From contig NZ_CP146101.1 in assembly GCF_037023745.1 (NCBI RefSeq), positions 434,001 through 498,000 of the forward strand: a stretch of DNA of 64,000 nucleotides, read 5' to 3'. The translations under genes were made by a program, and so were the position numbers. Position 1 is the stretch's first letter. Every line of letters starts with the position of its first letter. This DNA is from Streptomyces sp. SCSIO 30461 (GTDB lineage Bacteria; Actinomycetota; Actinomycetes; Streptomycetales; Streptomycetaceae). This document shows positions 16,829 to 47,114 of the stretch, piece by piece. Below the pieces are notes generated by a model. That model was not told the origin of the DNA and searched no databases. It saw nothing but the letters and a program-made list of their open reading frames with translations.

Positions 16829-16901
16829 GGGCCGTTAGCTCAATTGGCAGAGCAGCGGACTTTTAATCCGTTGGTTGTGGGTTCGAGTCCCACACGGCCT
16901 A
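16829..16901 (+). tRNA. tRNA-Lys (UUU), integration target
   Basis: Cloverleaf with acceptor GGGCCGT/ACGGCCT, anticodon stem GCGGA/TCCGT and loop CTTTTAA (anticodon UUU), T-loop GTTCGAGTC. The last 44 bases of the gene are part of a 45-bp block that recurs exactly at 52,732 and 63,466. Integration has therefore kept the gene whole and left its 3' end duplicated. Confidence 0.97.
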
Positions 16902-16902
16902 C
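16858..16902 (+). repeat. att core 1 (attL of element A, inside tRNA-Lys)
   Basis: 45-bp block from the anticodon arm to just past the tRNA 3' end (begins GACTTTTAATCCG, ends CACACGGCCTAC). Exact copies lie at 52,732-52,776 and 63,466-63,510. The match to core 2 extends by one base on the left and two on the right. Confidence 0.95.
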
Positions 16903-16937
16903 CGCTGGCAGGGAGGGGATACCCTCTCTGACCTGCT

Positions 16938-26329: not shown

Positions 26330-28038
26330 TCGCCGCTATCAAGCCGAATGGATCCAACACTCGCGGCCTGCTCGCCTACCTCTACGGCCCGGGCCGGCAC
26401 GACGAGCACCTCGACCCGCACATTGTTGCCGGTTTCGCCATGCTCGGCATGCCCGACCCCGGCCGCGACGAGAACGCCACTCTTACCGACCTCGCCCGAC
26501 ACCTCGACGAGCCGGTCCGGCTGCGGAACAGCGAGTTCGGCAAGAAGGTCACCAACCACGTCTGGCACTGCCCCGTCCGCGCCGCACCAGAGGACCGCCA
26601 GCTCTCCGACGCCGAGTGGGGCGAGATCGCCCAACGCATCGTCCAGGCCGCCGGCATTGCCCCCGACGGCGACGACCTGGCGTGCCGCTGGATCGCCGTA
26701 CGCCATGCCGACGACCACATCCACATCCTCGCCACCACTGTTCGTGAGGACGGACGCCGCCCCAAGCTCCACGACAGCGGCGTCCGCGTCGGCGACGCCT
26801 GCCGCGAGATCGAGAAGGAATACGGTCTTCGACAGCTGAAGAAGGGCGACCGTACCGGCACCCGCCGACCCACCCAGGCCGAGATGCACAAGGCCGATCG
26901 CCTCGGCTGGGAGCAGACCAGCCGCGAGTGGCTCCAGGACCGCATCCGCGCTGCCATTCCGCACGCCACCAGCGCCGAGGAACTCATCGCATACCTCGAA
27001 GCAGGCGACATCCTGGTCAAGCCACGCCGGGGGCCATCCGGGGATCTCCTCGGCTACGCAGTCGGCCGCCCTGGCGACCTGAACAACGACGGCGAGCAGA
27101 TCTACCACCCCGGCGGGAAGATCGCCCCCGACCTGTCCCTGCCCAAACTGAAAGCCCGCCTCGAAAACAGCGTCCCTGAGGAACACCCCACGGCCCGCCG
27201 CAACCGGTCGGCTACCCCCTGGGACCAGGCCACTGACGCCCTCGACACGCTCCACACCGGCCTCGGCAACGACACTCATGCCCAAGCGCACATCACCGCC
27301 CTTGGCGAACTACTCGAAGCCACAGCCCAGAAAGCCCCAGACAACCTGCGCGCCGAACTCCAAGGAGCTGCGACGGCGTTCGCGCGCGCCCAGCGCTCCC
27401 AGATCCGGGCCGAAGACCGAGCCGCCCAGACCCTGCGCAAGGCCGCCCGCGACATCGCCCACACCGCAACCGGTCCCGACGGCGGTACCCTCGCCGCCCT
27501 GCTCGCAGCCCTCGTATGGGCCGCGATCATCGCCACCCGCTGGCACGAAGCGAAAAACCACGCCCACCAAACCGACGCCGCCCGGCAAGCCGTCCAACAC
27601 CTCCAGGCCGCCGCCGACGACGCCCTCGCCCCCGCGCTCACCGAACTCGAACACCGCCAGCCCAGGGCGCAGACCCGCCTCGTCCTCGCCAACGACGTAC
27701 GCGCCGCCGTCCCCGACCACGCCACCCGCATCCTCGCCGACTCCAGCTGGCCGGCCCTCGCCACCGTCCTCGCCGACGCCGAAGCCCGCGGCCACAAACC
27801 CCACCAACTCCTCAAGGAAGCCGCCGCCCAACGCGAACTGACCACCGCCCGCCAACCCGCCCGCGTCCTGATCACCCGCATCCAGCACACCAGCCGCAAC
27901 CCCGCACCCAACCGCCGCGCCGAAGCCGCCCGCCGACGCTCCACCACGGGTACGCCGCCGTTCGCTCAGCCGAGGCATCCCTCGCACAGCCCGTCACCAG
28001 CCACGCCGACTGGCCAACAAGGCCCACGTCGGCGCTGA
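26326..28038 (+). CDS. Relaxase (MobA/VirD2-type, MOBP-like)
   Basis: 570 residues. The N-terminal nuclease domain begins MIAAIKPNGSNTRGLLAYL, has NHVWHCPVRA and the metal-binding motif VRHADDHIHILATTV. The catalytic Tyr is probably in the LLAYLYGPGR segment near the start. The rest is helical with one membrane-like segment near residue 390 (LAALLAALVWAAIIATRW) and a Pro/Arg-rich tail. It should nick oriT and lead the strand into the recipient. It is the last gene of the mob operon. The 3' third is unusually C-rich on the coding strand. Confidence 0.88.
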   Translation: MIAAIKPNGSNTRGLLAYLYGPGRHDEHLDPHIVAGFAMLGMPDPGRDENATLTDLARHLDEPVRLRNSEFGKKVTNHVWHCPVRAAPEDRQLSDAEWGEIAQRIVQAAGIAPDGDDLACRWIAVRHADDHIHILATTVREDGRRPKLHDSGVRVGDACREIEKEYGLRQLKKGDRTGTRRPTQAEMHKADRLGWEQTSREWLQDRIRAAIPHATSAEELIAYLEAGDILVKPRRGPSGDLLGYAVGRPGDLNNDGEQIYHPGGKIAPDLSLPKLKARLENSVPEEHPTARRNRSATPWDQATDALDTLHTGLGNDTHAQAHITALGELLEATAQKAPDNLRAELQGAATAFARAQRSQIRAEDRAAQTLRKAARDIAHTATGPDGGTLAALLAALVWAAIIATRWHEAKNHAHQTDAARQAVQHLQAAADDALAPALTELEHRQPRAQTRLVLANDVRAAVPDHATRILADSSWPALATVLADAEARGHKPHQLLKEAAAQRELTTARQPARVLITRIQHTSRNPAPNRRAEAARRRSTTGTPPFAQPRHPSHSPSPATPTGQQGPRRR

Positions 28039-28243: not shown

Positions 28244-29050
28244 ATGAGTGTGTCTCTTTCGCCTTGGGCGACCGATGTGTTCGGCGAGCAGGCGCCGGCA
28301 GTCCGCATGTTCCTTGGACAGGCGCTTCGGAACATGCAGGCCAACGCTCAGGCAGCGCATGAGCAGACCAACTCCCGTACCAACCACACGTACGGGACGT
28401 CTCGCTGGCAGAACCAGTTCGAGCGTGTCCAAGACGAGCTGAAGGAGCTCCCGGGAGCCACTCCCGTGAAGCCGTTCGGGTTCCCGTTCGAGCTCATGCT
28501 CGTCGGCCGCGGCCTGATCTATCCGTTCCTCTACTCGAAGACCAAGGCGGACGTGCGCAAGGCGCGCATCCCCAGCGAGTCCCAGCTGGTGAAGGAACTC
28601 TTCACCTTCGCCCCTGAGCCGAAGCACGTGCAGGACACGTTCGACTTCGGCTTCGGAGGAACCGCCCTCGCCGTGGAACCGCGAGGTGGCCTGGCGGCCC
28701 TCCCTCAAGGTACCCGTCTGATTCTGGTGCCCTTCGCCTGTAACGCCTCCGAACTCCTGGAGGCGCACTGGGGCATCGCAGCACTCGGGGAGAGCCGTCG
28801 TCTGGAGTGGGCGACCGTTCCCGAGCCCCTTGCCTTGCCCCAAACCGTCACCTCATACGGCACGCGGTTGGCCAGCGTCCCCGAGCAGACTGCGGCATCA
28901 GAACGGAAGCACACCAGCTTCGCCGAAGGAAGCGAGCCCACGCTTACGCTGTCCTCGCGTGCGACCTCGGACCGAGCGCGAGACGTCCCGCCGCAGACCG
29001 AAGCACAACCAGTCGAGGACCAGACCAGCGAAGACGATGCGACCCACTAA
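28244..29050 (+). CDS. Unknown protein paired with an XRE-ImmA/IrrE protein
   Basis: 268 residues from ATG 28244 (MSVSLSPWATDVFGEQAP), preceded by AGGAG. I recognise no family. The first 190 residues look globular (FPFELMLVGRGLIYPFLYSK; FDFGFGGTALAVEPRGGL), and the last 60 are disordered and charged. It overlaps the next gene by 14 bases. In ImmA/IrrE systems the protease usually cuts a partner protein, so this could be substrate, toxin or sensor; that is inference from position only. Confidence 0.7.
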   Translation: MSVSLSPWATDVFGEQAPAVRMFLGQALRNMQANAQAAHEQTNSRTNHTYGTSRWQNQFERVQDELKELPGATPVKPFGFPFELMLVGRGLIYPFLYSKTKADVRKARIPSESQLVKELFTFAPEPKHVQDTFDFGFGGTALAVEPRGGLAALPQGTRLILVPFACNASELLEAHWGIAALGESRRLEWATVPEPLALPQTVTSYGTRLASVPEQTAASERKHTSFAEGSEPTLTLSSRATSDRARDVPPQTEAQPVEDQTSEDDATH

Positions 29051-30206
29051 GCAAGACTTTATTCCGGGCCTGGAAGAGCGGGGAACGACGCCCCGTGCCA
29101 TCTCCGACGGCTTCGACCCCGCTCGGTTGACGCAAGCGCGGCGACTGGCGGAGATGACGAAGAAGGACGTGGCAGCGAGCCTCGGAGTGACTCCGGCCGC
29201 CGTGGGCCAGTACGAGACGGGGGTTTCGCGGCCGCGCCCTGACCTGATCCCCCGGCTCGCCGAGACCCTCGGAGTACCCGCGACCTTCTTCCTACTCGGA
29301 CGTCCGGTCAACCGGCTCGACGCCTCGATGGCCCACTTCCGGAGCTTGCGCAGTACGCCAAAGTCTCAGCGGGAGCGGGCACTGGCCTTCGCCGAGCAGG
29401 TCTGGGAACTCACGTACGCCCTTGAGCAGCGGATCCAGCTGCCACTCGTGGACCTGCCGGGCTTCGCCGGCGGAGAAGTTCACCCAGGGGCGGAGCTGCC
29501 CACTGACCCAGCCGCCGCCGCGCGTGAGCTTCGGCGGCGCTGGGGGTTGGGAGACGGACCCGTGACCCATCTGGTGAGGCGTATGGAAGCTCACGGCATC
29601 GTCGTAGTGATGCCCCCCGCGAGCGATCCCTCAGCCGCCACCGTGGACGCATTCTCGACCCGCGCTGCCCGGCCGCTCGTTATCCTCACCGCTAACCGCG
29701 CGGATGACGTCTACCGGCATCGGTTCACAGCAGCCCACGAACTCGGTCACCTCGTTCTTCACGGCGACGCCACCGGCGACAGTCGGCAGGAGAAGGAAGC
29801 TGATGCCTTCGCTGCGGAGTTCCTGACCCCCCGGGCCAGCATCTTGCCCTTGCTGCCCAAGCGAATGGACTTTGCACGGCTCGCAGAACTCAGGCAGATC
29901 TGGGGGGTTTCCATCCACTCCCTCGTCTACCGCTGCCGCGAACTGGGACTGACTTCAGACGCCACCACCAGTCGGACGTACCAGCGCCTCCGCGCACTGG
30001 AAGGCCAGCCCGGATTCGCGGCGGAGTCCGTGTCCAACTTCTCCGGTGAACAGCCCTCGCTTCTACGGCAAGCGTTCGAGCTGGCTTCCCAGGAAGCGGA
30101 TCTGTCCGTTGCCCGATTGGCGCATGAACTTGCCTGGACTACCAAGCGTGTGCGAGAACTCCTCGGAGTCCAGGAGCAGCGCCCCGTGCTGCGCCTGGTC
30201 CAGTAG
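29037..30206 (+). CDS. XRE-family protein with ImmA/IrrE metallopeptidase domain
   Basis: 389 residues. An N-terminal Cro/CI helix-turn-helix (residues about 30-85: RLAEMTKKDVAASLGVTPAA) is joined to an ImmA/IrrE zinc-peptidase domain with TAAHELGHLVLHGD (HELGH) and the downstream KEADAFAAEFLTP helix. The C-terminal 100 residues add a second helical part (VARLAHELAWTTKRVRELLG). Such fusions cleave and lift repressors after DNA damage, or act with toxin-like partners. ATG 29037 overlaps the preceding gene, so they are co-translated. Confidence 0.87.
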   Translation: MRPTKQDFIPGLEERGTTPRAISDGFDPARLTQARRLAEMTKKDVAASLGVTPAAVGQYETGVSRPRPDLIPRLAETLGVPATFFLLGRPVNRLDASMAHFRSLRSTPKSQRERALAFAEQVWELTYALEQRIQLPLVDLPGFAGGEVHPGAELPTDPAAAARELRRRWGLGDGPVTHLVRRMEAHGIVVVMPPASDPSAATVDAFSTRAARPLVILTANRADDVYRHRFTAAHELGHLVLHGDATGDSRQEKEADAFAAEFLTPRASILPLLPKRMDFARLAELRQIWGVSIHSLVYRCRELGLTSDATTSRTYQRLRALEGQPGFAAESVSNFSGEQPSLLRQAFELASQEADLSVARLAHELAWTTKRVRELLGVQEQRPVLRLVQ

Positions 30207-30441: not shown

Positions 30442-30512
30442 AAGCCCGCCCTGGCCGCAGGGCTCATGCCGCGGGGGACGGCAGGCACTTCCGTGGCCAG
30501 GGCGGGGGCTTA
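30442..30512. terminator. Long stem bidirectional terminator
   Basis: AAGCCCGCCCTGGCC (30,442-30,456) pairs with GGCCAGGGCGGGGGCTT (30,495-30,511) across a 38-base loop that can fold itself. It lies between the plus-strand ImmA/IrrE gene and the minus-strand operon, overlapping the end of the latter. The rest of 30,207-30,441 shows no gene. Confidence 0.55.
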
Positions 30513-30881
30513 ACTTCGGCGTAGGAACCTGCTCTGTCCTCGGTGCCTGCCGGTACGCCGGGCGGGGGATGGTTCCATTTCGGCGGTCTCGCTCGACCGA
30601 TGAGGCAGAGCCGGTTCGTCCTTGCTGAGGATGGACTGCCAGACCCGTTCCTGAAGCTCGCGGATGCAGGGGCCGCATGCGTACATGGGTGCCTGGGCGC
30701 CGGCGACTCTGGCGGGGCCGATCCACAGGACGCGCGTCCATCGCTGCCCGCAGTAGAGCCAGCAGAATCCGTCGACCCATTCGTTGCCGTCGTCGGTGGC
30801 CGCCGGTGTGGGCAGTCCTCCGCGGGCGAACTCGGCGATCCCGGGGATCACCCTGTGCTGTAAGGCGACTTCCGTCAGCAT
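30510..30881 (-). CDS. Small Cys4 protein, last gene of the radical SAM operon
   Basis: 123 residues from ATG 30881. Two Cys pairs (GFCWLYCGQRW, about residues 40-44; YACGPCIREL, about 69-72) are spaced like a zinc ribbon. Between them is the conserved-looking RVLWIGPARVAGAQAPMYA. The last 35 residues are basic and disordered. I recall similar short proteins in other Streptomyces elements but know no function. It is 19 bp after the CYTH gene, in the same direction. Confidence 0.65.
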   Translation of the reverse strand: MLTEVALQHRVIPGIAEFARGGLPTPAATDDGNEWVDGFCWLYCGQRWTRVLWIGPARVAGAQAPMYACGPCIRELQERVWQSILSKDEPALPHRSSETAEMEPSPARRTGRHRGQSRFLRRS

Positions 30882-30900
30882 TGCTCGTCCGCCTCCGCGA

Positions 30901-31488
30901 TTAACGGGTCTGGGCCGTCGTAGCAGCGTCCTCCTGCTTCTCGGCGTCGGAGAACAGGAGGGTGGGTTCGGCGAGGATGTCGCGGCCAGCCTCGCTCTTG
31001 TAGATCTCATCGACGCTGCCGAAGCGGGCTTCGGAGTAGTCGAGGTCAAGCAGCGCGGCGGCTTGCCGCACCGACGCCTCGTCGGGTCCCTCGATCTCCA
31101 GGAAGGTGGGGAGGTCGGGCCAGGTGTCGAAGTCGAAGGCGACCTCGCCCAGGCGCCACTCCTCCCGGTAGTTCTCCTGGTAGCGCACCTCGGTGAGGCC
31201 GACCCGGCGCAGGATGTCGGCCATGGCGTGCAGGTCGGTGACCTCGGTCTCGATCTCCTTGGTGCCGTCGATCGTCGTGGCGTCGGTGACCTGCTTGAGC
31301 GTGAGCGTCGAACGGGTGCCCTCGTCACGCAGCCGAATCCAGGCCCCGCCATCCAGGGAGTCGTTCTCGAAGATCTTGCGGGTGAGGAGCGTGCGGGGGA
31401 ACGCCTGAACGGCGCCGAGGGCAGTCAGCTTGGCCTGGAGGCCGGCGGCGTCGACGGCCAGGAACTTCGCCTCGTACTCGTGCTTCAT
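30901..31488 (-). CDS. CYTH-domain protein (class IV adenylate cyclase/thiamine triphosphatase type)
   Basis: 195 residues beginning MKHEYEAKFLAVD, which contains the ExExK signature of CYTH enzymes. Further acidic and basic tunnel residues follow (TRKIFENDS, WIRLRDEG, TLTLKQV, EIETEV, FDFDTWPDLPTFLEIEG). CYTH enzymes bind triphosphates inside a beta-barrel and either cyclise ATP or hydrolyse organic triphosphates; which one applies cannot be told from sequence. It lies 12 bp after the methyltransferase gene in the operon. Confidence 0.85.
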   Translation of the reverse strand: MKHEYEAKFLAVDAAGLQAKLTALGAVQAFPRTLLTRKIFENDSLDGGAWIRLRDEGTRSTLTLKQVTDATTIDGTKEIETEVTDLHAMADILRRVGLTEVRYQENYREEWRLGEVAFDFDTWPDLPTFLEIEGPDEASVRQAAALLDLDYSEARFGSVDEIYKSEAGRDILAEPTLLFSDAEKQEDAATTAQTR

Positions 31489-31499
31489 GGGTCCTTCTC

Positions 31500-32162
31500 T
31501 CAGAAGTGGTCGGTGAGGGTGGACGTCCGGGCCGCAATGAGCAGGCCCATGCGGTGGGTGTGGTCGTGCAGCTGGCCGACGTGGGGCCGCTCGGTGAACT
31601 CGGTCGTGCGCAGGGTGAGCAGGACCTCCCAGTCGCCGAGGAAGTGGTGGCGAAGGCGCTCAGGAGAGGTGTAGTGCTCGATCATGTGGTGGCGTCTCTC
31701 GACGGGCATCATGAACTCCGCGCCGAACACACCGCCCGGGCGGACCAGGCGCTGCATGCGGTCGACGAACTCGGCGAGCGGGCGGTGGTGGTTGGCACTG
31801 TAGTGCCACGAGCAGCTCGTCCAGACCGCCTCGCACTGCAGGCCCAGGGGTTCGCCGTCGAGGAAGTCGTCCTCAACGACCTGTACGCGTTCGTGGAGTT
31901 CTTCGAGCTTCAGTCGATCGATCAGGCCCAACGCGTGTGCCTGGCTGTCACCCGGGAGGTGGACGTCGCCCCCGTGGAGGGCGACCGCGTCGCGTTCGAC
32001 GGCGACGACGTGGTAGCCGGCGGCGGCGAGGGGCAAGACGAACTTGCCGTCGCTCGCGCCGACAACCGCGACGGTGGAGTCAGGGGCGACACGTTCCCGC
32101 AACGTGGCGAGGAACTGCGGGAAGAAGGTGAGGGTGTGCTCCCACAGGCTCTGTGTCTGCAT
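31500..32162 (-). CDS. SAM-dependent methyltransferase
   Basis: 220 residues. The Rossmann fold is clear: TVAVVGASDGKFVLPLAAAG (motif I), VVAVERD (motif II, acidic ribose ligand) and VRPGGVFGAEFMM. His-rich stretches (WHYSANHHRP, RRHHMIEHY) may form the substrate pocket. Substrate unknown. The start at 32162 has AGGAG upstream but lies 83 bp inside the preceding kinase frame, an unusually long overlap. Confidence 0.8.
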   Translation of the reverse strand: MQTQSLWEHTLTFFPQFLATLRERVAPDSTVAVVGASDGKFVLPLAAAGYHVVAVERDAVALHGGDVHLPGDSQAHALGLIDRLKLEELHERVQVVEDDFLDGEPLGLQCEAVWTSCSWHYSANHHRPLAEFVDRMQRLVRPGGVFGAEFMMPVERRHHMIEHYTSPERLRHHFLGDWEVLLTLRTTEFTERPHVGQLHDHTHRMGLLIAARTSTLTDHF

Positions 32163-32721
32163 GGGAGTGCGCTCCTAACGTATCGGGGTCCGTGATCACG
32201 CGGAGGACCTCGGCGGGGCTGCGCCCCGTGGTGTCGACGCGATGCATCGGGAACGAGGCGTAGGCGTCCGTCACCCGGTCCGTAACGGTCTCGATCAGTG
32301 CGTCCCATCGCGATGCCGGCTTGTTCCGTCCAGCGAGCCGACGCTGTCGTTCGTCGTCGTCGCAGACGAGGTGGTACGTGACGGGTGTCGGCAGCCAGCT
32401 CGGTAGGGTGATACCGAGCCGGGAGCCCAGGGCCCGGTGGGTAGCGAGGCACCGGGCGAAGTAGCTCTCGACGACGACCGGGACGCCGGCGTCGAGATGG
32501 TGCTGGATCTCCTCGGCCGCGGTGAACAGAGCGGAAAGGTAGAGGCACATCCGCGCCTCGACGCTCGTCCGCCCGTCCACCGCATGTCTGAGCGGCTGGT
32601 AGAGGGACGGGACTGTGGCGACAAGGACGGCTTGTCGGGCGGCGGCGAGCATCGGCGCCAGGGTGGACTTACCGGTGCCGCGTAATCCCTCCAGGCTCTC
32701 GAAACGCGGGTGATCAGGCAC
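32080..32721 (-). CDS. P-loop kinase (thymidylate-kinase-like)
   Basis: 213 residues with a Walker A loop at the start (LEGLRGTGKSTLAPML, residues about 9-24), a VVESYFARCLATHR segment like the DR-type base-binding region and a lid RRLAGRNKPASRWDAL. It resembles dTMP kinase or other deoxynucleotide kinases, but the substrate is not given by sequence. The start overlaps the radical SAM stop by eight bases; the C-terminal 28 residues overlap the methyltransferase gene and may be an overrun. Confidence 0.75.
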   Translation of the reverse strand: MPDHPRFESLEGLRGTGKSTLAPMLAAARQAVLVATVPSLYQPLRHAVDGRTSVEARMCLYLSALFTAAEEIQHHLDAGVPVVVESYFARCLATHRALGSRLGITLPSWLPTPVTYHLVCDDDERQRRLAGRNKPASRWDALIETVTDRVTDAYASFPMHRVDTTGRSPAEVLRVITDPDTLGAHSHADTEPVGAHPHLLPAVPRHVAGTCRP

Positions 32722-33616
32722 GGCCGTACACCACGTCCGGCACCGCGAGAGTGAGCTCGTCGGCGGACGAGGGCTTGTGGACGATGCGTCCTGCCGCCTT
32801 CTCGTACCAGAAGGCGTGCGAGTCCTTGCCCACGGCCTTGCAGGACATGGTCAGCGCACCGCGCGGGTCGGCCTCGATGCGGTCGATCTCGCGAGGACCG
32901 TCGGACGGTGCGCACACCTGCGGGGCGCCGTGCTCGGAGAGGTCCTCGTCGACGATCACCTCCAAGGGCAGGTCGGCCGACGCGAGCTCTTCGCGTAGCC
33001 GGCCGTAGGCGGAGGGGGCGGTGACCAGCAGTTCAGGGTGGTCGGCGGCGTTGCCGACCGGCCGCAGGTGGTGGAGCTTGAGTTGCCGGACCCCTAGCTG
33101 CGCCAAGACTCTTGCGAGAGGGATGACCTCGTCGATGTTCCGCGAGGTGACGGTCATGGTCGCGCCCGTCGAAACGCCGAGGTCCCGCGCCAGAGTGAGC
33201 GAGTCGAGGGCGCTTTGGTAACTGCCCTGCCTGCGGATGCCGTCGTTGGTCGATCCGACGCCCTCCAGCGAGACCCTGAGCAGGTCCAGGTGCGGAGCGA
33301 TCTCGGTCAGGCGGCGCTCGATCCGGTACCCGTTGGTGCAGATCTCGACGCGCTGGCCCAGCTCCTCCTTGGCGTGGCGGACGACCTGCGCGAGGTCCCG
33401 GTGGACGAACGGCTCTCCGCCGAGCAGGGTCACGGCCTCCGTGCCGTACTCGTCCCGCATCAGAGTGAGGAGGCTCGCGGCTTCCTCGGCGGTGAACGCG
33501 TCCGCGTACTGGAGCCGCTCGCCGTGGAAGCAGTGCAGGCATGTGAAGTTGCAGCGGTAGAGCAGCTGCAGGTACAGCATTCGGATCTTCCTGATCCCGG
33601 TGACTTCCCCGATCAC
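32714..33616 (-). CDS. Radical SAM enzyme
   Basis: 300 residues. The 4Fe-4S motif CNFTCLHC (22-29) is followed by TLLGGEPFVHRDL (GGEP motif), VEICTNGYRI, LLRVSLEGVG and LKLHHLRPVGNAADH, the usual barrel strands. Two further Cys near the end (VCAPSDG, MSCKAVG) could bind an auxiliary cluster, but a full SPASM set is not visible. Its position as first gene of a five-gene operon, with a kinase, methyltransferase and CYTH protein, suggests action on a nucleotide or small metabolite; no precursor-peptide gene was seen. Confidence 0.88.
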   Translation of the reverse strand: MIGEVTGIRKIRMLYLQLLYRCNFTCLHCFHGERLQYADAFTAEEAASLLTLMRDEYGTEAVTLLGGEPFVHRDLAQVVRHAKEELGQRVEICTNGYRIERRLTEIAPHLDLLRVSLEGVGSTNDGIRRQGSYQSALDSLTLARDLGVSTGATMTVTSRNIDEVIPLARVLAQLGVRQLKLHHLRPVGNAADHPELLVTAPSAYGRLREELASADLPLEVIVDEDLSEHGAPQVCAPSDGPREIDRIEADPRGALTMSCKAVGKDSHAFWYEKAAGRIVHKPSSADELTLAVPDVVYGRA

Positions 33617-33697
33617 ATCGGCTCCTTCGGCTGACTGCCTGTTGGGAGCCCGATCGTGGCCTTCTGCCCGGGGACCTCGTCACCGCGTTCAGGGACG

Positions 33698-33717
33698 GTC
33701 CCAGGACGTCCTGGGAC
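33698..33717. promoter_or_regulatory. 20-bp perfect palindrome upstream of the radical SAM operon
   Basis: GTCCCAGGAC followed by its exact complement, 82 bp before the radical SAM start and just after the HAD stop. The related GTCCCAAAACGTCC lies at 34,459 between the HAD and XRE genes. Probably an operator, perhaps for the XRE-DUF5919 protein. Confidence 0.6.
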
Positions 33718-33721
33718 GTTT

Positions 33722-34414
33722 TCAGTGACCTGCGAAGGACTCCACCATGCTGAGGACGCGCTTCGTGTCCGACAGGTCGGGCAGGACGTCAGCAGCGCCG
33801 GCCGCGGTCAGTTCCTCCGGCGTGTGGATGCCAGAGGCGACGGCGAGGATCCCGGAGCCCGTGGTCAGAGCTGCTTCGACGTCGCGCGGGGTGTCCCCCA
33901 CAAGGACGGTGGGGACGTCGGCCGAAACACCGCGAAGTCGCTGCGCGCGCTCGCGGGCGACAGCGACCAGATGGGGACGGAGCTCGGCGTCCGCTCCGTA
34001 GGCGCCCACTGTCAGGTCCAGCAGCGATTCGAGGCCGAACGCCGACAGTTTCACACGGGCGTTGGCGGCGATGTTGCCGGTGAGGACGGAGGAGACCCAA
34101 CCGCTCTGAGCGGAGGCGGCCTTCAGCGCCTCATGGACACCGGGCAGGGCAGTCCCGCGCCTGCGCAGCTCCTCCAGGCGCGCTTCCCCCGCCTGGGCGA
34201 GCGCGGTCTCGATGAAGTGCCAGGCAGGTACGGGCAGCCCTTCGCGGACGAACATGTCGCGCATGATCAGTCGATCGGTACGCCCCTCAGTACGCGCCGC
34301 CTCCGTGGGCTCGCGTCCCGAGAGCTCTGAGAAGGCAGCGGCGTAGATCTCCTTGCTCACCCCCGCGTTCTCGATGAGAGTGTGGTCGATGTCCCACAGG
34401 ACGAAGAGCTCCAT
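33722..34414 (-). CDS. HAD-superfamily phosphatase
   Basis: 230 residues. The catalytic DIDHT (residues 8-12, nucleophile Asp) is near the start, SSVLTGNIAANARVKL gives motif II (Thr) and VLVGDTPRDVEAALTTGS motif IV. The cap is helical and lies between motif I and II (C1 type), as in phosphoglycolate phosphatases and nucleotidases. It diverges from the XRE-DUF5919 gene and runs towards the radical SAM operon. Confidence 0.87.
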   Translation of the reverse strand: MELFVLWDIDHTLIENAGVSKEIYAAAFSELSGREPTEAARTEGRTDRLIMRDMFVREGLPVPAWHFIETALAQAGEARLEELRRRGTALPGVHEALKAASAQSGWVSSVLTGNIAANARVKLSAFGLESLLDLTVGAYGADAELRPHLVAVARERAQRLRGVSADVPTVLVGDTPRDVEAALTTGSGILAVASGIHTPEELTAAGAADVLPDLSDTKRVLSMVESFAGH

Positions 34415-34458
34415 GCCGCCAGAGTAGGCAGTCGGCGGGGCTGCGCTTCAGCCACCGC

Positions 34459-34472
34459 GTCCCAAAACGTCC
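34459..34472. promoter_or_regulatory. Second operator-like site GTCCCAAAACGTCC
   Basis: It matches 12 of 14 positions of the left part of the palindrome at 33,698 and lies in the 95-bp space between the divergent HAD and XRE genes, where both promoters must be. Confidence 0.5.
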
Positions 34473-34509
34473 TTGCGCGATCACGCGGTGCGCCGATTCG
34501 ATATCTGCT

Positions 34510-35283
34510 GTGAACGACCGACTGCGCACCGTGCTCGGCCAACGCGGCGTCTCGCCCGACTCGCTGGCCGAAATCTGCGAAGTAGATCCCAAAACGGTGA
34601 GCCGGTGGCTAGGCGGGCGAGTTCCCCATGCCCGGCACCGCTTCCGCGTCGCGCGACACCTGCGCGTGGAAGAGACCTTCCTCTGGCCCGAGCCGTCCAA
34701 GCGCCCCGGCCGGCCGCAGGACGGGTTAGGCACCGAGCTGGTCGGCACCTACCAGAACAGGGCCAGCGTGCCCCGGGACGTCTGGCTCGCGCTGCTGCGA
34801 GAGGCTCGCCACGAGATCGGCGTCCTCGTCTTCTCCGGTACCTTCTTCGCCCAGTCCAATCCCCACGTCGCCAAGATGCTCTCCGAACGTGCCGCCGATG
34901 GAGTGCGGGTGCGCCTGTGCTTCGGCGACCCGGACGGGCAGGCAGTCGCCATCCGGGGCCGCGAGGAGGGAATCGGCGACACCCTCGCCGCCAAGATCCG
35001 CGCCTCGCTGACGTACTACCGGCCCCTGCTGGGCGAGGCCGGGTGCGCCGTACGGCTCCATGACACCACCCTCTACACGTCCATGTTCCGCTACGACGAC
35101 AACCTGCTCGTCAACCCCCACATCTGGGGACAACCGGCCAGCGCCAACCCCCTCCTCCACCTCAAGAGGACGGACGGCACAGGGTGGTTCGACAATTACG
35201 CTCAGAGCTTCGACGCCGTCTGGGCCGCCGCGCGGCCATGGGCACCCGACCAGGAGAGGACCGCCGACCATGGGCAGGACTGA
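34510..35283 (+). CDS. XRE-type DNA-binding protein with DUF5919 domain
   Basis: 257 residues from GTG 34510; no ribosome site is visible, so a leaderless message is possible. An N-terminal HTH (LRTVLGQRGVSPDSLAEICE ... KTVSRWLGG) is followed by a C-terminal domain with YQNRASVPRDVWLALLREA, GVLVFSGTFFAQSN and GVRVRLCFGDPDG. This has the look of the DUF5919 domain, which I believe is related to phospholipase-D-like folds. It probably regulates the neighbouring genes in response to a ligand. It overlaps the NUDIX gene by 14 bases. Confidence 0.82.
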   Translation: MNDRLRTVLGQRGVSPDSLAEICEVDPKTVSRWLGGRVPHARHRFRVARHLRVEETFLWPEPSKRPGRPQDGLGTELVGTYQNRASVPRDVWLALLREARHEIGVLVFSGTFFAQSNPHVAKMLSERAADGVRVRLCFGDPDGQAVAIRGREEGIGDTLAAKIRASLTYYRPLLGEAGCAVRLHDTTLYTSMFRYDDNLLVNPHIWGQPASANPLLHLKRTDGTGWFDNYAQSFDAVWAAARPWAPDQERTADHGQD

Positions 35284-35737
35284 GTACTACAACGACCCCA
35301 CCGCCCCGAAGGCGAACACCCTCATTCCGGCCAGCAACCTGCTCGTCGTTGACGAGACCGGCGCCATCCTCCTCCAGCGCCGCCGCGACACCGGCCAATG
35401 GGCGCTCCCCGGCGGGGCCCAGGACATCGGCGAGACCGCGGCCGAGTGCGCCGTCCGCGAGTGCTTGGAGGAGACCGGGATCATCGCGGAGATCACAGGC
35501 TTTCTCGGCGTCTACACCAACCCGAACCACATCGTCGCCTACACCGACGGCGAGATCCGCCAGCAGTACGAGAACACCTACATCGGCCGCCCCGTCGGCG
35601 GAGCACCCACGGTCAACGACGAGGCCGACGGCGTCCGCTTCGTCCAGCCCACTGCCCTGGACCGGTACGACATCCACCCCAGCATGCGCCAGCAGATCGG
35701 CGACTACCTCGCCGGCACCTACCCCTACCTTGGCTGA
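35270..35737 (+). CDS. NUDIX hydrolase coupled to the XRE-DUF5919 gene
   Basis: 155 residues from ATG 35270 with GGAGAGGA upstream. The Nudix box is complete: GGAQDIGETAAECAVREC then LEETGI. Nudix enzymes hydrolyse nucleoside diphosphates linked to another group; the substrate is unknown. The C-terminus overlaps the convergent HD gene by 13 bases. Confidence 0.9.
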   Translation: MGRTEYYNDPTAPKANTLIPASNLLVVDETGAILLQRRRDTGQWALPGGAQDIGETAAECAVRECLEETGIIAEITGFLGVYTNPNHIVAYTDGEIRQQYENTYIGRPVGGAPTVNDEADGVRFVQPTALDRYDIHPSMRQQIGDYLAGTYPYLG

Positions 35738-36288
35738 GCCGCTAAGGCGGCCTCGATCCTCTCGACCGAGGAGAAGATCTCCGGCGCCGCCCGCCGGATG
35801 AACCGCCCGACCACGCTGTTGTCTCCGTAGCGGCCGACGATCTCCGTGACCCGGTTTTGTGCGGTAGTCCGGTCGCCATCGGGTGTCGTCGTCATGTCGC
35901 AATACACGAGGGCGTCCACCAGCAGCGGGTCGTCCAGCAGCGGGAACTCTGACGCCAATTCATCCCGCAGCCCGCGCTCCTTGGCCTCCAACAGGGCAAA
36001 AGAGTGGTTCGCGACCAGCCGCACGAGCCGCTCGTCGGCCCCGTGCTCGTCACGAAGAAACCTAGCCCCGTCCAGCGGGTGGAACCCGGTCACGGCCAGT
36101 CGAGGTGCGTACCCGACGTCGTGCAGTGTGGCGGAAGCGACGAGCAGGCCAGTGTTCTTGCCGAGGGCCGGCCCGACCTCGGCCGCACGTTCAGCCACTC
36201 CTTGTGTGTGCGCCCACCGACGTGGAAGCGCAGTGCTGAGTTCGGCTTCTGCTACTTGAATCGCCCAGCCGACCATAGCTTCATCCAT
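35725..36288 (-). CDS. HD-domain phosphohydrolase
   Basis: 187 residues from ATG 36288 (MDEAMVGWAIQVAEAEL). Metal ligands appear as RRWAHTQGV, ASATLHDVGYAP (the HD pair), NHSFALLEA and DALVYCDMTT. HD proteins hydrolyse nucleotides or cyclic nucleotides. Together with NUDIX, HAD and CYTH genes this makes four phosphate-ester enzymes in 6 kb. It is convergent with the NUDIX gene. Confidence 0.85.
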   Translation of the reverse strand: MDEAMVGWAIQVAEAELSTALPRRWAHTQGVAERAAEVGPALGKNTGLLVASATLHDVGYAPRLAVTGFHPLDGARFLRDEHGADERLVRLVANHSFALLEAKERGLRDELASEFPLLDDPLLVDALVYCDMTTTPDGDRTTAQNRVTEIVGRYGDNSVVGRFIRRAAPEIFSSVERIEAALAAQPR

Positions 36289-36816
36289 GGCCTGGTAATG
36301 CCCAGTGGCCCGACAGTCACTCTCCAAGCACCTCGGATCTCGAACGTCCGAAACGGCTCGGCGCCGCCGGCTACGGACTCGACGCGACCGCCCTGGCGCG
36401 GAACCTGATCGCCCACATCGCCGACTGGAGCACCAACCGCACCGCGGCACCGCGGCACCGCGGCACCGCTCAGGAGCATGCATCCGGTAGGTACCTCAGA
36501 CAGCGAACTTCCGAAGGGGCATGTCATTGACAAGCGACAGCCGCATGGTGCTGCTCTTTACCGGCACGAACGCCTAGCCACATGACGAGCTCGCCTCCTG
36601 AGGGCACGGCTTGAACGATCCGTGCCCGGGGGGCCGACGCTCACCGTGCCTTCGGCCGACAAAGGGATTTCTGTGCCCAGCCGGAGCAGCGACGAGAGTG
36701 AGCGCTGAGCGGGGTGCTGAGACTGGTGTGTCGGCCTGTCTGCCTGAATAATTGTCGCACTCGGGGGGTTTCGAGGTGCGTTGCCTCCTGCGCGTTCATG
36801 CCGGAGGTACGTCTGC
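36289..36816. other. Non-coding scar between the HD gene and the Hhe-like gene
   Basis: No intact gene. A plus-strand frame (RLGAAGYGLDATALARNLIA ..., about 36,350-36,480) looks like a relic of an unrecognised protein. It ends in three and a half tandem copies of the 8-mer ACCGCGGC (about 36,438-36,467). The 17-bp repeat at 36,334 lies at its start. The promoter of the large helicase gene should lie within 36,500-36,800. Confidence 0.4.
36334..36350 (+). repeat. 17-bp direct repeat, right copy
   Basis: Exact copy of CGGATCTCGAACGTCCG at 28,067-28,083. The two copies bracket an 8.3-kb cargo block. Confidence 0.6.
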
Positions 36817-39800
36817 ATGCCCAGTTCAGGAACGACCCGAGCCGCGCACTGGGGCAGCAGTGGCAGTGCAAGCGGCAGTGACCCTGCGCTCGATCGGTTG
36901 AAGGCTGTTCTGGGCGACTGGCGCAGCTCCTTGCTCGACCTCGGCGGGCGCAACCGGCTGCTGAACTTCAGGCATACGCGGACCGCAACCCTTGAAATCA
37001 CGGCGCCCGACCCCTTCACTGTGCTGTCCGGGCTCGCCCGCGGTTGGTTCTTCGCCCCCATCTCGGGCGGTGAAACCGAGGGGAACGCGGCCGGCGAGGT
37101 GGGGGAGGCGGAGGCTCCGGGCACCTTGGCGTTCTACGACTCGCCCTCCGCGGCTGGCCGACCCGGTGCCGCCTCGGGCCTGGTGACACAGAAGAGCACG
37201 CAGGCGGGGCTGGACGCGTCGCTCTACCAACTGCGGCAGAAGTCAGGCCAGATGTACAACGACTACGGTCTGTGGGTGCTCTGGCTCGGCGTCGGCATGC
37301 TGGACTGGCGGGAGGAGGGTGCCGAGGAGACGAGTTCCGCTCCGCTGCTGCTTGTACCTGTCGAGCTTCGCCGAGACGGGCGACGGCAGACGCGTCTGCA
37401 CCTGGCGGAGGACCAGGACCGGATCCACAACCCTGCGCTCGCGGTCAAGCTGGAACGGCTCGGAGTCGACTGGAGCTCCGTCGCCGACTGCGACGTGGCC
37501 GATCCGAGCGCGGTTCTCGCCGCCGCCCGGGATGTCGCGCGTGCGCAGGACGGCTGGTCGGTTGACGAGCGGGTGGTACTCGGCCTCTTCGCCTCGCACA
37601 AGGAGGCCATGTACCAGGACCTCCAGCAGAACGAGGAGCGCATCCTCGCTCATCCGCTGGTCCGGGCCGTCGGCCTCGGACCCGACGCGGGGCTGCCCGA
37701 CGATCTGATCGGCTTCGAGCCGCCCGAGCTGGACCGCATCGACGAGATCCAGCTGCCTGAGCGAACCCCACTCGTGCTGGACGCGGATTCCTCACAGCGG
37801 CAGTGCATCGCGGCCGCGTTGGACGGCGGCCCCTTCGTGATGAGCGGCCCGCCCGGTACGGGCAAGAGCCAGACGATCACCAACATGATCGCCGCCCTCA
37901 TGCACGCCGGCCGGTCCGTCCTCTTCGTCAGTGAGAAGGCCGCAGCGCTCGACGTGGTCCGCAACAGGCTGCGAGGCGTCGGCCTCGGCGACTTCGTGAT
38001 GGCCCTGCACAGCGGCGACACCAGCAAGAAGGCTGTGGCGACGGAGCTCGAGCGGGTGCTGACCACCGAAGTGCGGATCACCGGAGCGGCTGAGCACGAA
38101 CTGGACAGGGCACGCCGGCTGCGGGAGGAACTGTCGGCCTACGCGGCGGCCATGAACCAGACCCGCGAACCGCTCGGCCGTACCCTCCACGACGTCCTGG
38201 GCCGCCTGGTCCTCCTGGAGCAGGCCGACACCCCGCAGCTCACCCTCGGCGCAAGGAGCACCGCCACGGTCCGGCGGCTTGGCGCCGGGGAGCTGCAGGC
38301 GCTCATGGAAGCGGCCGGCACCGTCAGCCGGGCCTGGCGCCCGGCAGCGGAGGGCGAAGCGTTCGTCTGGCGTTGGCTGAAGCTGAAGGGGAGCTCCGTC
38401 CCCACCACAGTCCTCGCGGAGGCCACCGACGCGCTCGCGGACCTGCGCGCGGCTGCCGAGCGTCGACCGTTTGCGGTCACGACTCCCGAACCGCGTACTG
38501 TGCACGACGTACGGCAGACCGTACGGACCCTGGAAGCGTGCCTGCCAGACCGGGACCCAGCCACGGTCGGCACGGTCGGCGGCGGACTGTCGGACGACTT
38601 CTCCGGAAGCCTCGCCCAGCTGGCCGAGCTGTTCGGACTGCCTAAGCCGGAAACCTCCCAGGAAGCGTTCGGCCTACTGGAACTCGCCGATCTGGCCTCC
38701 GTGGTGAAACGGCCACCTGCGCGATGGTTCGACGAGGAAGGTCTGCGCGAGGCACATCGAGCGGCTCAGGAGGTGCGGGACGCGCTTGCAGCCCGCGCGG
38801 CAGCCCGCGCTGCAGCGGGAGATGTCTTTGGTGAGCAGGTGCTTGAAGCTGAAGAGTTGCCCGCCCTGGCCGAGAGGTTTACTGAACAGCATCGGGGTGT
38901 GTTCGCGCGTCTGGCTGGCCAGTATCGGGAGGATCGCGCGGCGGTGGCCGCGCTCACGCGCGACGGTGCCTGGGACAAGACACTGCCCCACCGCCTCAAC
39001 GACGCCCTGGCCTGGCAGAACACTGCGGCTGAGTTCGCTCGGTCGGTGGCACGTCACAAGGAGGCGCTGGGCGGCTACGTCCCCCGCGACGAAAGCGAAC
39101 TGCCCGCCATGGACGCAGCGCTGGCTGCTGCGGACCGCATCGCGGAACTCACCCGCGGGACGGCTCACCGGGACCCGCTCACTGCCCGCCTGGCCGACGG
39201 CACCGAGCCCGACCCGCTGCCGGGGTTGTTGGCCCGTGGCATTCGTAGCGCGCTGACCAGCTGGTGCGACACGGTGGCGCGCCGTGCCGCTCGCTGGTCG
39301 GAGTCATCGACCGCGCTACACGATCTCTTCGAGGAGCCCCGCCAGGCTCAGTTGTCCTTCGCCCTGTTCGGTACCTTCGACCAGGCCCAGCTGGCCGTCG
39401 ACGAACTCCGGGCCGACCCGCGTGGCTCGGAGGAATGGCAGGCATACCGCTCTGGAGTCGACGTCCTGGCGCGTCACGGTATCGATGACCTCGTCCCCCG
39501 TGCCGTCGAACGAGGCGTCCTGCCCGAACAGTTGCCTGCGGTGTTGGAGCAGGCCGTGCTGAAGTGCTGGGCCGACGACCTCCTGGCCACGGACACCCGT
39601 CTCGCCACCACCCGCTCCGCGGACCTGGACGCCCGGGTGGCCGACTTCCGGGAGGCCGACCGCCGACTGGTCGCCGCCGCGAGCGGTGCCGTGATCGAAG
39701 CGTGCAACAAGCGTCGGCCGCGCCGATTCAGCGGCGGGGCGGCCTTGGTGATCAAGAAGCAAGCGGAGCTGAAGCGACGCCACATGCCAGTGCGGGAACT

Positions 39801-41874
39801 ACTCGGCCGGACCCGCGAAGTCGTCCGGCTGATCAAGCCGTGCTTCATGATGAGCCCTCTGACGGTAAGCCAGTTCCTGCCCGCGGATTATCACTTCGAC
39901 GTGGTGATCTTCGACGAGGCATCACAGGTTCGCCCGGCCGACGCGATCAACTGCGTATACCGGGCAGACTCTCTGATCGTGGCCGGCGACGAAAAGCAGC
40001 TGCCGCCCACATCCTTCTTCGACTCGGCCGTCGAGGACGACTCCGACCAGTACGACGAGGACGTTCCGGACAGCTTCGAGTCGCTGCTGCACGCATGCAA
40101 GGCGGGCGCCCTGCGCGAGCTGTCCCTGCGCTGGCACTACCGCAGCCGTCACGAGGAACTGATCACGTTCAGCAACAGGTCCTTCTACGGCAACTCCATG
40201 GTGACCTTCCCCGGAGCGCTGGACCACGGCAACGACATCGGCGTCGACTTCTTCCACACACAGGGTGTGTACGACCGTGGCGGCCGACGCGACAACCGCG
40301 TGGAAGCGGAGTTCGTCGCCCGGCGGGTGATCCATCACTTCGACACCCGCCCTGGCCGCACTCTGGGTGTTGTCGCCCTCTCTCAGGCGCAGGCGGCGGC
40401 CATCGACCAGGCTGTCCAGCAGGCCCGGCTGCTCCGCCCCGACCTGGACCACTGCTTCACCGAGGACCGGCTCGACGGGTTCTTCGTCAAGAACCTCGAG
40501 TCCGTCCAGGGCGACGAGCGCGACGTCATGATCATGTCGATCGGGTACGGACCCGACGAGCACGGCAAATTCGGCACGAACTTCGGGCCCATCAACAAGG
40601 GCGGCGGCTGGCGGCGCCTGAATGTCGCCGTGACCCGGGCACGCTTCCGCATGGAGGTCGTCGCCTCGTTCCGGGGCAGCGGCCTGACCGACAGCGCCAA
40701 CGAGAGCGTTCAGCACCTGAAGCGGTATCTGGAGTACGCCGAGAACGGACCGGCAGTCCTCGCGCAGGCCGTGACACAGGCTGACGCCGAACCGGACAGC
40801 CCTTTCGAGGAGTCGGTCCTGCAGGTGCTACGCGACTGGGGCTACCGCGTGCAGCCGCAGGTTGGCGTGGCCGGATACCGCATCGACATCGGCGTGCGCC
40901 ATCCGCAGTTCCCCGGTGCCTACGCACTCGGTATCGAGTGCGACGGTGCGATGTACCACTCGTCCAGGACGGCTCGGGATCGCGACCGGCTGCGGGAGGA
41001 AGTGCTCGCCGGGCTGGGCTGGCGGCTGCACCGCATCTGGGGCACCGACTGGTATCGCGGCCGGGCTGCCGCCGAGCTGAGATTGCGTGAGGCGGTCGAG
41101 CTGGCGGTCGAGCGGGGACCGATGTCGGACTCCGACTCCACCTCGGTAGATCCGACGGTGGCCGCCGAGGATGAGGCGGAGGAGACCTCGCGCACGAGGC
41201 CGACCGCTCCGTTCTCTGGCGCTTCGGACTGGCCTGATGCTCCGGGACCGGGGGACGGAGCGACGCCTACGACCCTGGCGCCCCCGGACCATGAGCGCGT
41301 TCCTGTCGACACCGAGCCCGACCGGCCGTGGAGCTGCATGTACGAGACGTGCGAGATGACCGTGTCCTCACCGTACGAACTGCACACCCCGGAAGCCCGG
41401 CCCGCGCTGCGCAACGTCCTGACCAGGGTCATCGGGATCGAGGGACCCATTCACGAGGAACTCTTGGTACAGCGCGCCAGGGAGGCGTGGGGCGTTGCCC
41501 GGGCGGGCAACAGGATCCGCGACAACGTGCGGGAAGTAGTGCGCGGCCTCGTCCGTTCGGGGAAGGTCACCGTCGACGGGCAGTTCCTGGACGTGGCCGG
41601 CCGAGAGGACTTGGACGCTCGCGTTCCGGGAGAGGGCGACACCCCTCGCAAGGCCGCGCACATCGCCCCGGCCGAGCGGCAGCTGGCGCTGTACGAACTT
41701 GCCGCGGAGTGCCCAGGCATGTCACGGGACGAACTGGTCCGGCACGCAGGCGAGTTCTTTGGCTGGCGTCGTATGGGTCGGGACATCCGCAGCTTCCTGG
41801 ACTCCGACGTCGATGAGCTGCACCGCCGAGGCAGGTTGAGGGAGGCGGACGGTCATATCACGGCGGTCGGGTGA
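36817..41874 (+). CDS. hhe: DUF4011-helicase-Vsr-DUF3320 protein, Hhe-like anti-phage protein
   Basis: 1,685 residues from ATG 36817, which has GGAGGT nine bases before it. Order of domains: DUF4011 (RSSLLDLGGRNRLLNFRHTR, about residue 32), SF1 helicase with GPPGTGKSQTITNM (about 345) and VVIFDEASQVRPAD (about 1,028), then GDEKQLPPTSFF and VTRARFRMEVVAS, a Vsr/MTES_1575-like nuclease domain (about 1,330-1,420; FEESVLQVLRDWGYRV, IECDGAMYHSS) and a C-terminal DUF3320 (about 1,510-1,610). This architecture matches the single-gene Hhe defence protein reported among predicted anti-phage systems. It should bind, unwind and cut invading DNA. Confidence 0.85.
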   Translation: MPSSGTTRAAHWGSSGSASGSDPALDRLKAVLGDWRSSLLDLGGRNRLLNFRHTRTATLEITAPDPFTVLSGLARGWFFAPISGGETEGNAAGEVGEAEAPGTLAFYDSPSAAGRPGAASGLVTQKSTQAGLDASLYQLRQKSGQMYNDYGLWVLWLGVGMLDWREEGAEETSSAPLLLVPVELRRDGRRQTRLHLAEDQDRIHNPALAVKLERLGVDWSSVADCDVADPSAVLAAARDVARAQDGWSVDERVVLGLFASHKEAMYQDLQQNEERILAHPLVRAVGLGPDAGLPDDLIGFEPPELDRIDEIQLPERTPLVLDADSSQRQCIAAALDGGPFVMSGPPGTGKSQTITNMIAALMHAGRSVLFVSEKAAALDVVRNRLRGVGLGDFVMALHSGDTSKKAVATELERVLTTEVRITGAAEHELDRARRLREELSAYAAAMNQTREPLGRTLHDVLGRLVLLEQADTPQLTLGARSTATVRRLGAGELQALMEAAGTVSRAWRPAAEGEAFVWRWLKLKGSSVPTTVLAEATDALADLRAAAERRPFAVTTPEPRTVHDVRQTVRTLEACLPDRDPATVGTVGGGLSDDFSGSLAQLAELFGLPKPETSQEAFGLLELADLASVVKRPPARWFDEEGLREAHRAAQEVRDALAARAAARAAAGDVFGEQVLEAEELPALAERFTEQHRGVFARLAGQYREDRAAVAALTRDGAWDKTLPHRLNDALAWQNTAAEFARSVARHKEALGGYVPRDESELPAMDAALAAADRIAELTRGTAHRDPLTARLADGTEPDPLPGLLARGIRSALTSWCDTVARRAARWSESSTALHDLFEEPRQAQLSFALFGTFDQAQLAVDELRADPRGSEEWQAYRSGVDVLARHGIDDLVPRAVERGVLPEQLPAVLEQAVLKCWADDLLATDTRLATTRSADLDARVADFREADRRLVAAASGAVIEACNKRRPRRFSGGAALVIKKQAELKRRHMPVRELLGRTREVVRLIKPCFMMSPLTVSQFLPADYHFDVVIFDEASQVRPADAINCVYRADSLIVAGDEKQLPPTSFFDSAVEDDSDQYDEDVPDSFESLLHACKAGALRELSLRWHYRSRHEELITFSNRSFYGNSMVTFPGALDHGNDIGVDFFHTQGVYDRGGRRDNRVEAEFVARRVIHHFDTRPGRTLGVVALSQAQAAAIDQAVQQARLLRPDLDHCFTEDRLDGFFVKNLESVQGDERDVMIMSIGYGPDEHGKFGTNFGPINKGGGWRRLNVAVTRARFRMEVVASFRGSGLTDSANESVQHLKRYLEYAENGPAVLAQAVTQADAEPDSPFEESVLQVLRDWGYRVQPQVGVAGYRIDIGVRHPQFPGAYALGIECDGAMYHSSRTARDRDRLREEVLAGLGWRLHRIWGTDWYRGRAAAELRLREAVELAVERGPMSDSDSTSVDPTVAAEDEAEETSRTRPTAPFSGASDWPDAPGPGDGATPTTLAPPDHERVPVDTEPDRPWSCMYETCEMTVSSPYELHTPEARPALRNVLTRVIGIEGPIHEELLVQRAREAWGVARAGNRIRDNVREVVRGLVRSGKVTVDGQFLDVAGREDLDARVPGEGDTPRKAAHIAPAERQLALYELAAECPGMSRDELVRHAGEFFGWRRMGRDIRSFLDSDVDELHRRGRLREADGHITAVG

Positions 41875-47054: not shown

Positions 47055-47114
47055 GTATATGGCGGTTAGTCCGGAAAGCCTGCGTGCGCAAGTTCGGCCT
47101 GTCCGGGGGCCTGG

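Follow-up and report, generated by a model that had tools for sequence, protein, structure and literature searches.

An exchangeable biosynthetic operon behind a recurrent XRE-NUDIX-HD-HAD module on a Streptomyces integrative element

A module and a promoter site shared by two operons

A block of nine genes at positions 30510–36288 of a 64,000-nucleotide stretch of the Streptomyces sp. SCSIO 30461 genome (contig NZ_CP146101.1, positions 434,001–498,000; the whole stretch is termed the window) joins a HAD-XRE-NUDIX-HD module to an operon headed by a radical SAM gene. The strongest result of our analysis is that this one module and one promoter site serve two unrelated operons: the four module genes behave as one unit with an exchangeable operon behind it, since in three genomes (L145, L147 and L149) another operon follows the module. 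We read the block as a mobile-element cassette of two parts, in which a putative XRE/NUDIX/HD/HAD switch would be paired with an operon making a modified, probably pyrimidine-derived nucleotide for defence or exclusion, a reading that we hold tentatively and at rather less than an even chance.

The radical SAM enzyme (300 aa; 32714–33616, minus strand; Pfam Radical_SAM 76.6 bits, cut-off 29.5) is followed on the same strand by a P-loop nucleotide-type kinase (32080–32721), a SAM-dependent methyltransferase (31500–32162), a CYTH (triphosphate tunnel) enzyme (30901–31488) and a 123-aa protein with a CxxxC...CxxC motif (Cys4; 30510–30881) that has no Pfam or NCBIfam match. The spacings along these five genes are an 8-nt overlap, an 83-nt overlap between the kinase and methyltransferase genes, 11 nt and 19 nt, in agreement with a sequence-only reading of the window that had described them as overlapping or less than 20 bp apart; the positions it gave for all nine genes were confirmed. 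Across a gap of 105 nt lie the HAD phosphatase (33722–34414, minus strand; Pfam HAD 46.3 bits, cut-off 27), an XRE regulator with a DUF5919 (degenerate phospholipase D (PLD)-like) domain, predicted to be a sensor or repressor (34510–35283, plus strand; PF19319 23.9 bits, barely above the cut-off of 23.5), the NUDIX hydrolase (35270–35737, plus strand; Pfam NUDIX 69.3 bits, cut-off 21.1) and the HD phosphohydrolase (35725–36288, minus strand; Pfam HD 35.1 bits, cut-off 22). The HD and NUDIX genes converge with a 13-nt overlap. Because the HAD/radical SAM gap holds a conserved repeated site, the block probably has two or more promoters. A single operon including the HAD gene was ruled out by this site and by loci that have the HAD gene and the XRE module but lack the operon.

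The radical SAM protein occurs in 17 of 199 genomes of the genus, the window's own included, with 74–92% identity at 17 places besides its own. A search of the same genomes with the NUDIX protein found relatives in 105 of them (E 1e-40), falling into identity groups of at least 80%, 70–72% and at most 51%, and close copies outside radical SAM cassettes were examined at 14 loci. Six of these (L145, L147, L149, L151, L152 and L153) carry HAD-XRE-NUDIX-HD as a unit without the radical SAM operon, L143 is a cassette minus the part from radical SAM to CYTH, and the others hold partial or lone NUDIX genes. Since the NUDIX, HD and HAD genes recur with the XRE gene both without the pathway and with another operon, they seem to lie outside the pathway proper. 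On this point the sequence-only reading, which grouped NUDIX, HD and HAD with CYTH as enzymes able to cyclise or destroy phosphorylated compounds, does not hold as worded.

At L145, L147 and L149 the first protein of the second operon is radical SAM-like by a CxxCxxC stretch, with no Pfam match, and is followed at all three loci by enolase-superfamily, YdeI-like, second HAD, methyltransferase and PhyH-dioxygenase genes. A phosphoketolase gene is found only at L145 and L147 and a creatininase gene only at L145 and L149, and the enolase-family match is short in L149. The first gene of this operon is present in 9 of the 199 genomes, and in three of these it accompanies the unit. The window's own genome also holds, far from the window (L189, G000:C1:6697001-6716000, ~6.70 Mb), a full copy of this operon type at 75–91% identity, with genes for the radical SAM-like protein, phosphoketolase, enolase family, creatininase and PhyH; within the 19 kb examined there, no match to the module genes or to the exact promoter site was found. 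In the third context of the module (L151–L153), a biosynthetic operon beside it could not be defined, and the conserved glycerol-3-phosphate dehydrogenase gene at these loci may be a host gene.

The motif ACGTCCCRGGACGTC is present at the promoters of both operon types, and the site stands in front of the second operon at three of three loci. In the window, the operator-like repeat AAAACGTCCCAGGACGTCCTGGGACCGTCC, conserved in relatives, precedes the radical SAM operon (33690–33721, minus strand), and a pair of CGTCC elements with a 10-nt period lies before the XRE gene (34458–34472, plus strand). A one-genome-per-species scan yielded 65 named loci, of which 63, all with the radical SAM gene, were counted; L101, a remnant with short radical SAM and HAD pieces, and L102, a 24% partial match, were left out. 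The HAD/radical SAM gap measures 100–115 nt in 41 of 56 loci, and a comparison of 25 of the 63 loci, picked for diversity, with the window gave a gap site that reads AAAACGTCCC[AG]GGACGTCC and then CGTCC a third time, at intervals of 10 and 11 nt. In Nocardia, which lacks the HAD gene, a similar site is located between the XRE and radical SAM genes. A relaxed pattern of the site was found in 57 of the 63 loci, just upstream of the radical SAM gene in 56 and elsewhere in L082, a Sphaerimonospora locus where three XRE-DUF5919-type genes surround the NUDIX gene (4234–9079). The 22 gap sequences examined contain 63 copies of CGTCC, where shuffling predicts 5.0 (largest shuffle 15), and the XRE strand of 26 upstream sequences contains 44, where shuffling predicts 8.8 (largest shuffle 16); these counts do not amount to probabilities because related sequences share ancestry.

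Exact matches to AACGTCCCRGGACGTC number 26 in 25 of the 199 genomes of the genus, with none for the reversed pattern; 17 are at the radical SAM cassette (all of its 18 places except that of G096), three at the second operon and one at L143. The five further positions (L192–L196) have no cassette or second-operon gene within 20 kb and were treated as chance or unrelated. With one mismatch allowed, the site core occurs once in the 8.05-Mb genome of the window. Among 20 distant loci with NUDIX genes of at most 51% identity, 18 have a recognisable XRE relative, and 12 of these 18 carry AACGTCCC within 250 nt upstream, as do none of 245 control genes; the single-site pattern behind this count was chosen after the sequences had been viewed. 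A stricter two-site pattern gave a weak result at the distant XRE promoters (3 of 18 versus 7 of 245 controls). In a Nocardiopsis variant of the cassette, which has no XRE-DUF5919 protein, no such site was detected by the patterns used.

Conservation and predicted chemistry of the cassette

Recurrence of these families in other genomes, a check that the sequence-only reading had proposed, was borne out. Seven genes (HD-NUDIX-XRE/radical SAM-kinase-methyltransferase-CYTH) keep one order and orientation in 57 of the 63 actinobacterial loci, whose hosts include Streptomyces, Kitasatospora, Nocardia and other genera, and 53 of these 57 also have the HAD gene; the four without it are all from Nocardia (L088, L090, L092 and L094). 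The block is not a chance grouping, since it recurs in fixed order in dozens of genomes. The six loci short of seven genes comprise three at contig ends (L061, L089 and L091), one with a truncated radical SAM gene (L098), one without HD (L074) and the Nocardiopsis variant (L097). Single-gene presence among the 63 loci is 63 for radical SAM and kinase, 62 for methyltransferase and CYTH, 60 for NUDIX and XRE, 58 for HD, 56 for HAD and 41 for Cys4. The 83-nt kinase/methyltransferase overlap and the 13-nt convergent HD/NUDIX overlap are kept in most loci, and median identity is highest for NUDIX (92%) and lowest for the kinase (68%).

Within the genus, stretches of 18–20 kb round the 17 other places all contain the radical SAM, kinase, methyltransferase and CYTH genes, and the HD, NUDIX, XRE and HAD genes are likewise arranged with few exceptions (no HAD in L037, HAD in two pieces in L029, and a truncated XRE with no NUDIX or HD in L022). 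Cys4 was undetected in the stretches L024–L026, L029, L036 and L037. A radical SAM profile (E 1e-35) matched five of 394 class-wide genomes: the window's own, two with further full-length copies, G743, and G909 (L244), in which the radical SAM gene is in two frames and the HAD gene is missing. A CYTH profile (E 1e-25) gave three matches in 396 phylum-wide genomes, all from the same genus, namely the window's own cassette, a remnant in G056 with CYTH and half a methyltransferase gene, and a 38%-identical CYTH in G088 beside a different radical SAM gene. In a genome of the genus other than the window's own, locus L106 (8019–9834) has a CYTH gene of 38% identity that overlaps a different radical SAM gene; the CYTH-radical SAM pairing thus recurs. 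No copy of the cassette was found in the viral contigs searched, and the plasmid search returned no radical SAM copy above 60% identity.

In the Nocardiopsis variant (L097), a 1059-aa frame (4180–7359) divergent from a kinase-radical SAM-methyltransferase-CYTH operon combines a weak XRE match, an NTPase (NPHP3_N/NACHT-like), HEAT repeats and an OMP-decarboxylase-family domain. In another actinobacterial family (L243, 5124–13732), a nucleoside-type biosynthetic cluster holds thymidylate-synthase-family, carbamoyltransferase, glycosyltransferase-like, radical SAM, P-loop kinase, methyltransferase, APH-like, sulfotransferase and NUDIX genes.

The predicted enzymes keep their motifs. The kinase (AAA_18 26.7 bits, cut-off 29.4) and the methyltransferase (weak Pfam Methyltransf_25/12/11 matches, best 19.6 bits) score below the Pfam cut-offs yet retain a P-loop (60 of 61 copies) and a SAM-binding-type GxSxG motif (56 of 61 copies), respectively. 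DxDxT is present in 56 of 56 HAD copies, a complete Nudix box in 60 of 60 NUDIX copies, and the four-cysteine motif in 38 of 38 Cys4 copies with at least 60% covered. The CYTH protein scores above the PF01928 cut-off (39.2 bits, cut-off 23.2) and carries ExExK, as EYEAK in the window and in strict form in 55 of 62 copies, which places it in the CYTH superfamily; the Saci_0718 TTM is its only solved relative by profile (43.6 bits), and against class IV adenylate cyclase CyaB it reaches 37.2 bits, under the TIGR00318 cut-off of 57.95. The HKD motif (HxK....D) of active phospholipase D superfamily members is found in none of 58 XRE-DUF5919 copies, and the PLD matches are weak. An AlphaFold2 model of the radical SAM enzyme (pLDDT 83.7) has SkfB, BlsE, SuiB and viperin-like proteins as its nearest folds, the BlsE-like and viperin-like folds of this predicted model being tied with those of peptide-modifying enzymes.

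These families fit nucleotide-like small-molecule chemistry, with the XRE protein a likely sensor or switch, much as the sequence-only reading had it. Radical SAM relatives adjoin a cytidine deaminase, an OMP-decarboxylase domain or a thymidylate-synthase-family protein, from which we infer that the operon product is probably a pyrimidine-nucleotide derivative. The C-terminal PLD-like domain of the XRE protein, which lacks the catalytic HKD motif, would likely bind a small phosphorylated ligand, and the protein, bound at CGTCC repeats spaced about one helical turn apart, would likely repress both the operon and its own promoter. Infection or incoming DNA could then shift the ligand level and induce the operon, whereupon the kinase would likely phosphorylate a nucleoside or nucleotide, the radical SAM enzyme might rearrange its sugar or side chain, the methyltransferase might cap the modified nucleotide, and the CYTH enzyme might finish or trim its triphosphate. 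Removal of ligand or product by the NUDIX, HD and HAD enzymes would limit self-harm and reset the switch.

Relation to known systems and alternative explanations

The sequence-only reading had called the whole block a candidate undescribed system, which fails for the XRE-NUDIX-HD part. In the open-access papers searched, among which most subscription journals are missing, we found no description of the operon, of DUF5919 or of PDC-M51, and no characterised pathway turned up there or in the family libraries; a match to such a pathway, or a lack of co-occurrence, would have refuted the earlier reading, and neither was seen. The XRE-NUDIX-HD part is already published, matching the mdp-nud-xre cluster (HD phosphohydrolase, NUDIX, XRE) that PMC3218068, a survey of integrative and conjugative elements in actinomycetes, reports from four Frankia elements, Sco5349, pMEA100 and pSE211. 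In PMC3364876, reg, nud and mdp genes are likewise described from an element of Actinoplanes, and PMC9513070 names NUDIX as an exclusion function. The likeness to the elements named in PMC3218068 is by description, the sequences compared being the trios of L214, L216 and L237. The window has the HD, NUDIX and XRE genes adjacent to one another, as in the published cluster. In the trios, the XRE proteins are 39–43% identical to the cassette XRE, NUDIX identity to trio members is 47–48% and HD identity 51–52% (L214 and L216), and CGTCC repeats lie at the XRE promoters. A trio with the same 13-nt HD/NUDIX overlap is present on the 18.5-kb plasmid NZ_CP107792.1, whose record also has FtsK and a primase-polymerase; L237 has an annotated FtsK, and the L214 trio lies beside an FtsK/SpoIIIE gene (FtsK_SpoIIIE 158.7 bits). 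The window cassette differs in its added HAD gene, in the relaxase on its element and in the biosynthetic operon that shares the promoter site.

The operon itself stands apart from its nearest named counterparts. Against pVip, the prokaryotic viperins with associated kinases, the radical SAM protein reaches 56.9 bits where the NF038283 cut-off is 180, and in the window it is joined by methyltransferase and CYTH genes with the XRE module ahead. Against BlsE, the cytosylglucuronate decarboxylase of blasticidin S (PMC3715490), it reaches 64.1 bits where the TIGR04466 cut-off is 400, and the remaining genes of the block are from other families. The kinase matches PADLOC PDC-M51B (67.2 bits) and VakA (35.1 bits), besides weak thymidylate and shikimate kinase matches. 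An identity with PDC-M51 was ruled out, since PDC-M51A is not adjacent and its sole match in the genome is of 26.9 bits at 6.52 Mb.

We infer a defence or signal role for the cassette, our best guess being a modified nucleotide that would serve defence or exclusion; two other explanations account for much of the same evidence. One of them, somewhat unlikely in our judgement, takes the operon for an ordinary nucleoside-type antibiotic or hormone cluster captured as mobile-element cargo, with the XRE module as pathway regulator, the hydrolases as self-resistance and no defence or element role. The BlsE-like radical SAM enzyme, the second biosynthetic operon behind the same module, of which a close copy stands by itself on the host chromosome (6.70 Mb), and the larger nucleoside-type cluster with a radical SAM relative in another family all argue for it. 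Typical antibiotic clusters, however, differ from small fixed gene sets that lack a transporter and sit beside restriction-type genes, and here no transporter family was found by Pfam among the nine genes, the genes are few and fixed across genera, and the cassette is placed beside variable restriction-type genes. The nearest called genes beyond HD (49 genes, deduplicated, from 53 loci) match 79 PADLOC models at 1e-25, a count of models matched and not of proteins, whereas 49 control genes (of 60 sampled, from 17 of 20 arbitrarily placed stretches) match three; at 1e-60 the HD-side genes still match 28 models, and most of the 25 models listed at that threshold are restriction-modification models, with PbeA, Orf5, MzaB and others also present.

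Alternatively, the operon might make a diffusible or transferred conjugal-immunity signal, which the Pif-like NUDIX and the HD protein would destroy in the element-bearing cell while element-free partners respond and the XRE protein reads it; we consider this unlikely. Beyond the match of XRE-NUDIX-HD to mdp-nud-xre of conjugative elements, the trios beside FtsK genes and the CGTCC repeats at their XRE promoters, it draws on Pif of pSAM2, which in the accessible part of PMC3218068 is a NUDIX-domain protein of a Streptomyces integrative element that blocks redundant exchange and acts in the recipient by an unknown mechanism. The resemblance to Pif is by description and not by sequence, however, and that part of the account mentions no biosynthetic operon. 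In addition, L214, L216 and L237 show no such operon, so that the signal would need another source there, and the window's element has a relaxase but no TraB/FtsK among the open frames scanned, which were not all of its frames. Modification of a macromolecule (tRNA or element DNA), with a base as the target of the radical SAM enzyme and methyltransferase and accessory roles for the kinase and CYTH enzyme, appears quite improbable: RNA modification is known for radical SAM enzymes and methyltransferases and Cys4 could be a nucleic-acid-binding zinc protein, yet Pfam finds no RNA-binding domain in the operon's proteins, and the substrates of these kinase and CYTH families are small phosphorylated molecules. 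That the nine genes are mere neighbours on a mobile element has a negligible chance: insertion sequences and unrelated cargo are indeed present there too, but the fixed order and orientation of the seven core genes at 57 of 63 loci across genera refutes it.

We regard a broader proposal as doubtful. Actinomycete elements may share an exchangeable immune or exclusion circuit, in which an XRE-PLD/NUDIX/HD/HAD switch would read and erase a nucleotide signal at CGTCC repeats and swappable biosynthetic operons would act as effectors; the new nucleotide of the radical SAM operon might block phage or plasmid DNA, or might be the missing molecule of Pif-type NUDIX conjugal immunity. An unexplained published trio of conjugative elements is now tied to concrete biosynthetic operons and a specific DNA site. 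This makes testable the ligand of XRE-DUF5919, the substrates of NUDIX and HD, and hence the possible working of Pif-type conjugal immunity, as well as the question of whether mobile elements, like viperins, produce modified nucleotides of their own for use in defence or exclusion.

The integrative element and its other genes

The location on a mobile element proposed by the sequence-only reading is supported by element borders. The left border (attL, 16858–16903, plus strand) is the 3' end of a tRNA-Lys (ttt) gene, and an exact copy of the last 46 bp of this gene forms the right border (attR, 52732–52777, plus strand), delimiting an integrative element of ~35.9 kb that contains the cassette. 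A tyrosine-type integrase gene lies near the left border (18444–19973, minus strand; Pfam Phage_integrase 46.0 bits, cut-off 27.1), and MobC and a MobA-type relaxase are encoded inside the element (25544–28038, plus strand; Pfam MobC 37.7 bits, Relaxase 43.7 bits). A relative of this relaxase is within reach of the cassette in 20 of the 63 loci.

Adjoining the cassette, outside it, is a gene for a 1697-aa helicase-nuclease (36781–41874, plus strand; Pfam DUF4011, AAA_11-AAA_12, MTES_1575 and DUF3320), followed by one for a 1150-aa protein with a weak AAA_16 match (41989–45441); together they may be a defence system of the element separate from the cassette. On the other side lies a gene for an XRE-ImmA/IrrE (Peptidase_M78) protein (29037–30206) that weakly resembles the spr1629 antitoxin family (109.9 of 335 bits). 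Within the element there are also transposase genes of the IS110, ISL3 and Mu/rve types (22957–24306 and 45546–48476), and near attR the PIN_10 and DUF433 proteins encoded in tandem (50813–51939) are possibly a toxin-antitoxin pair.

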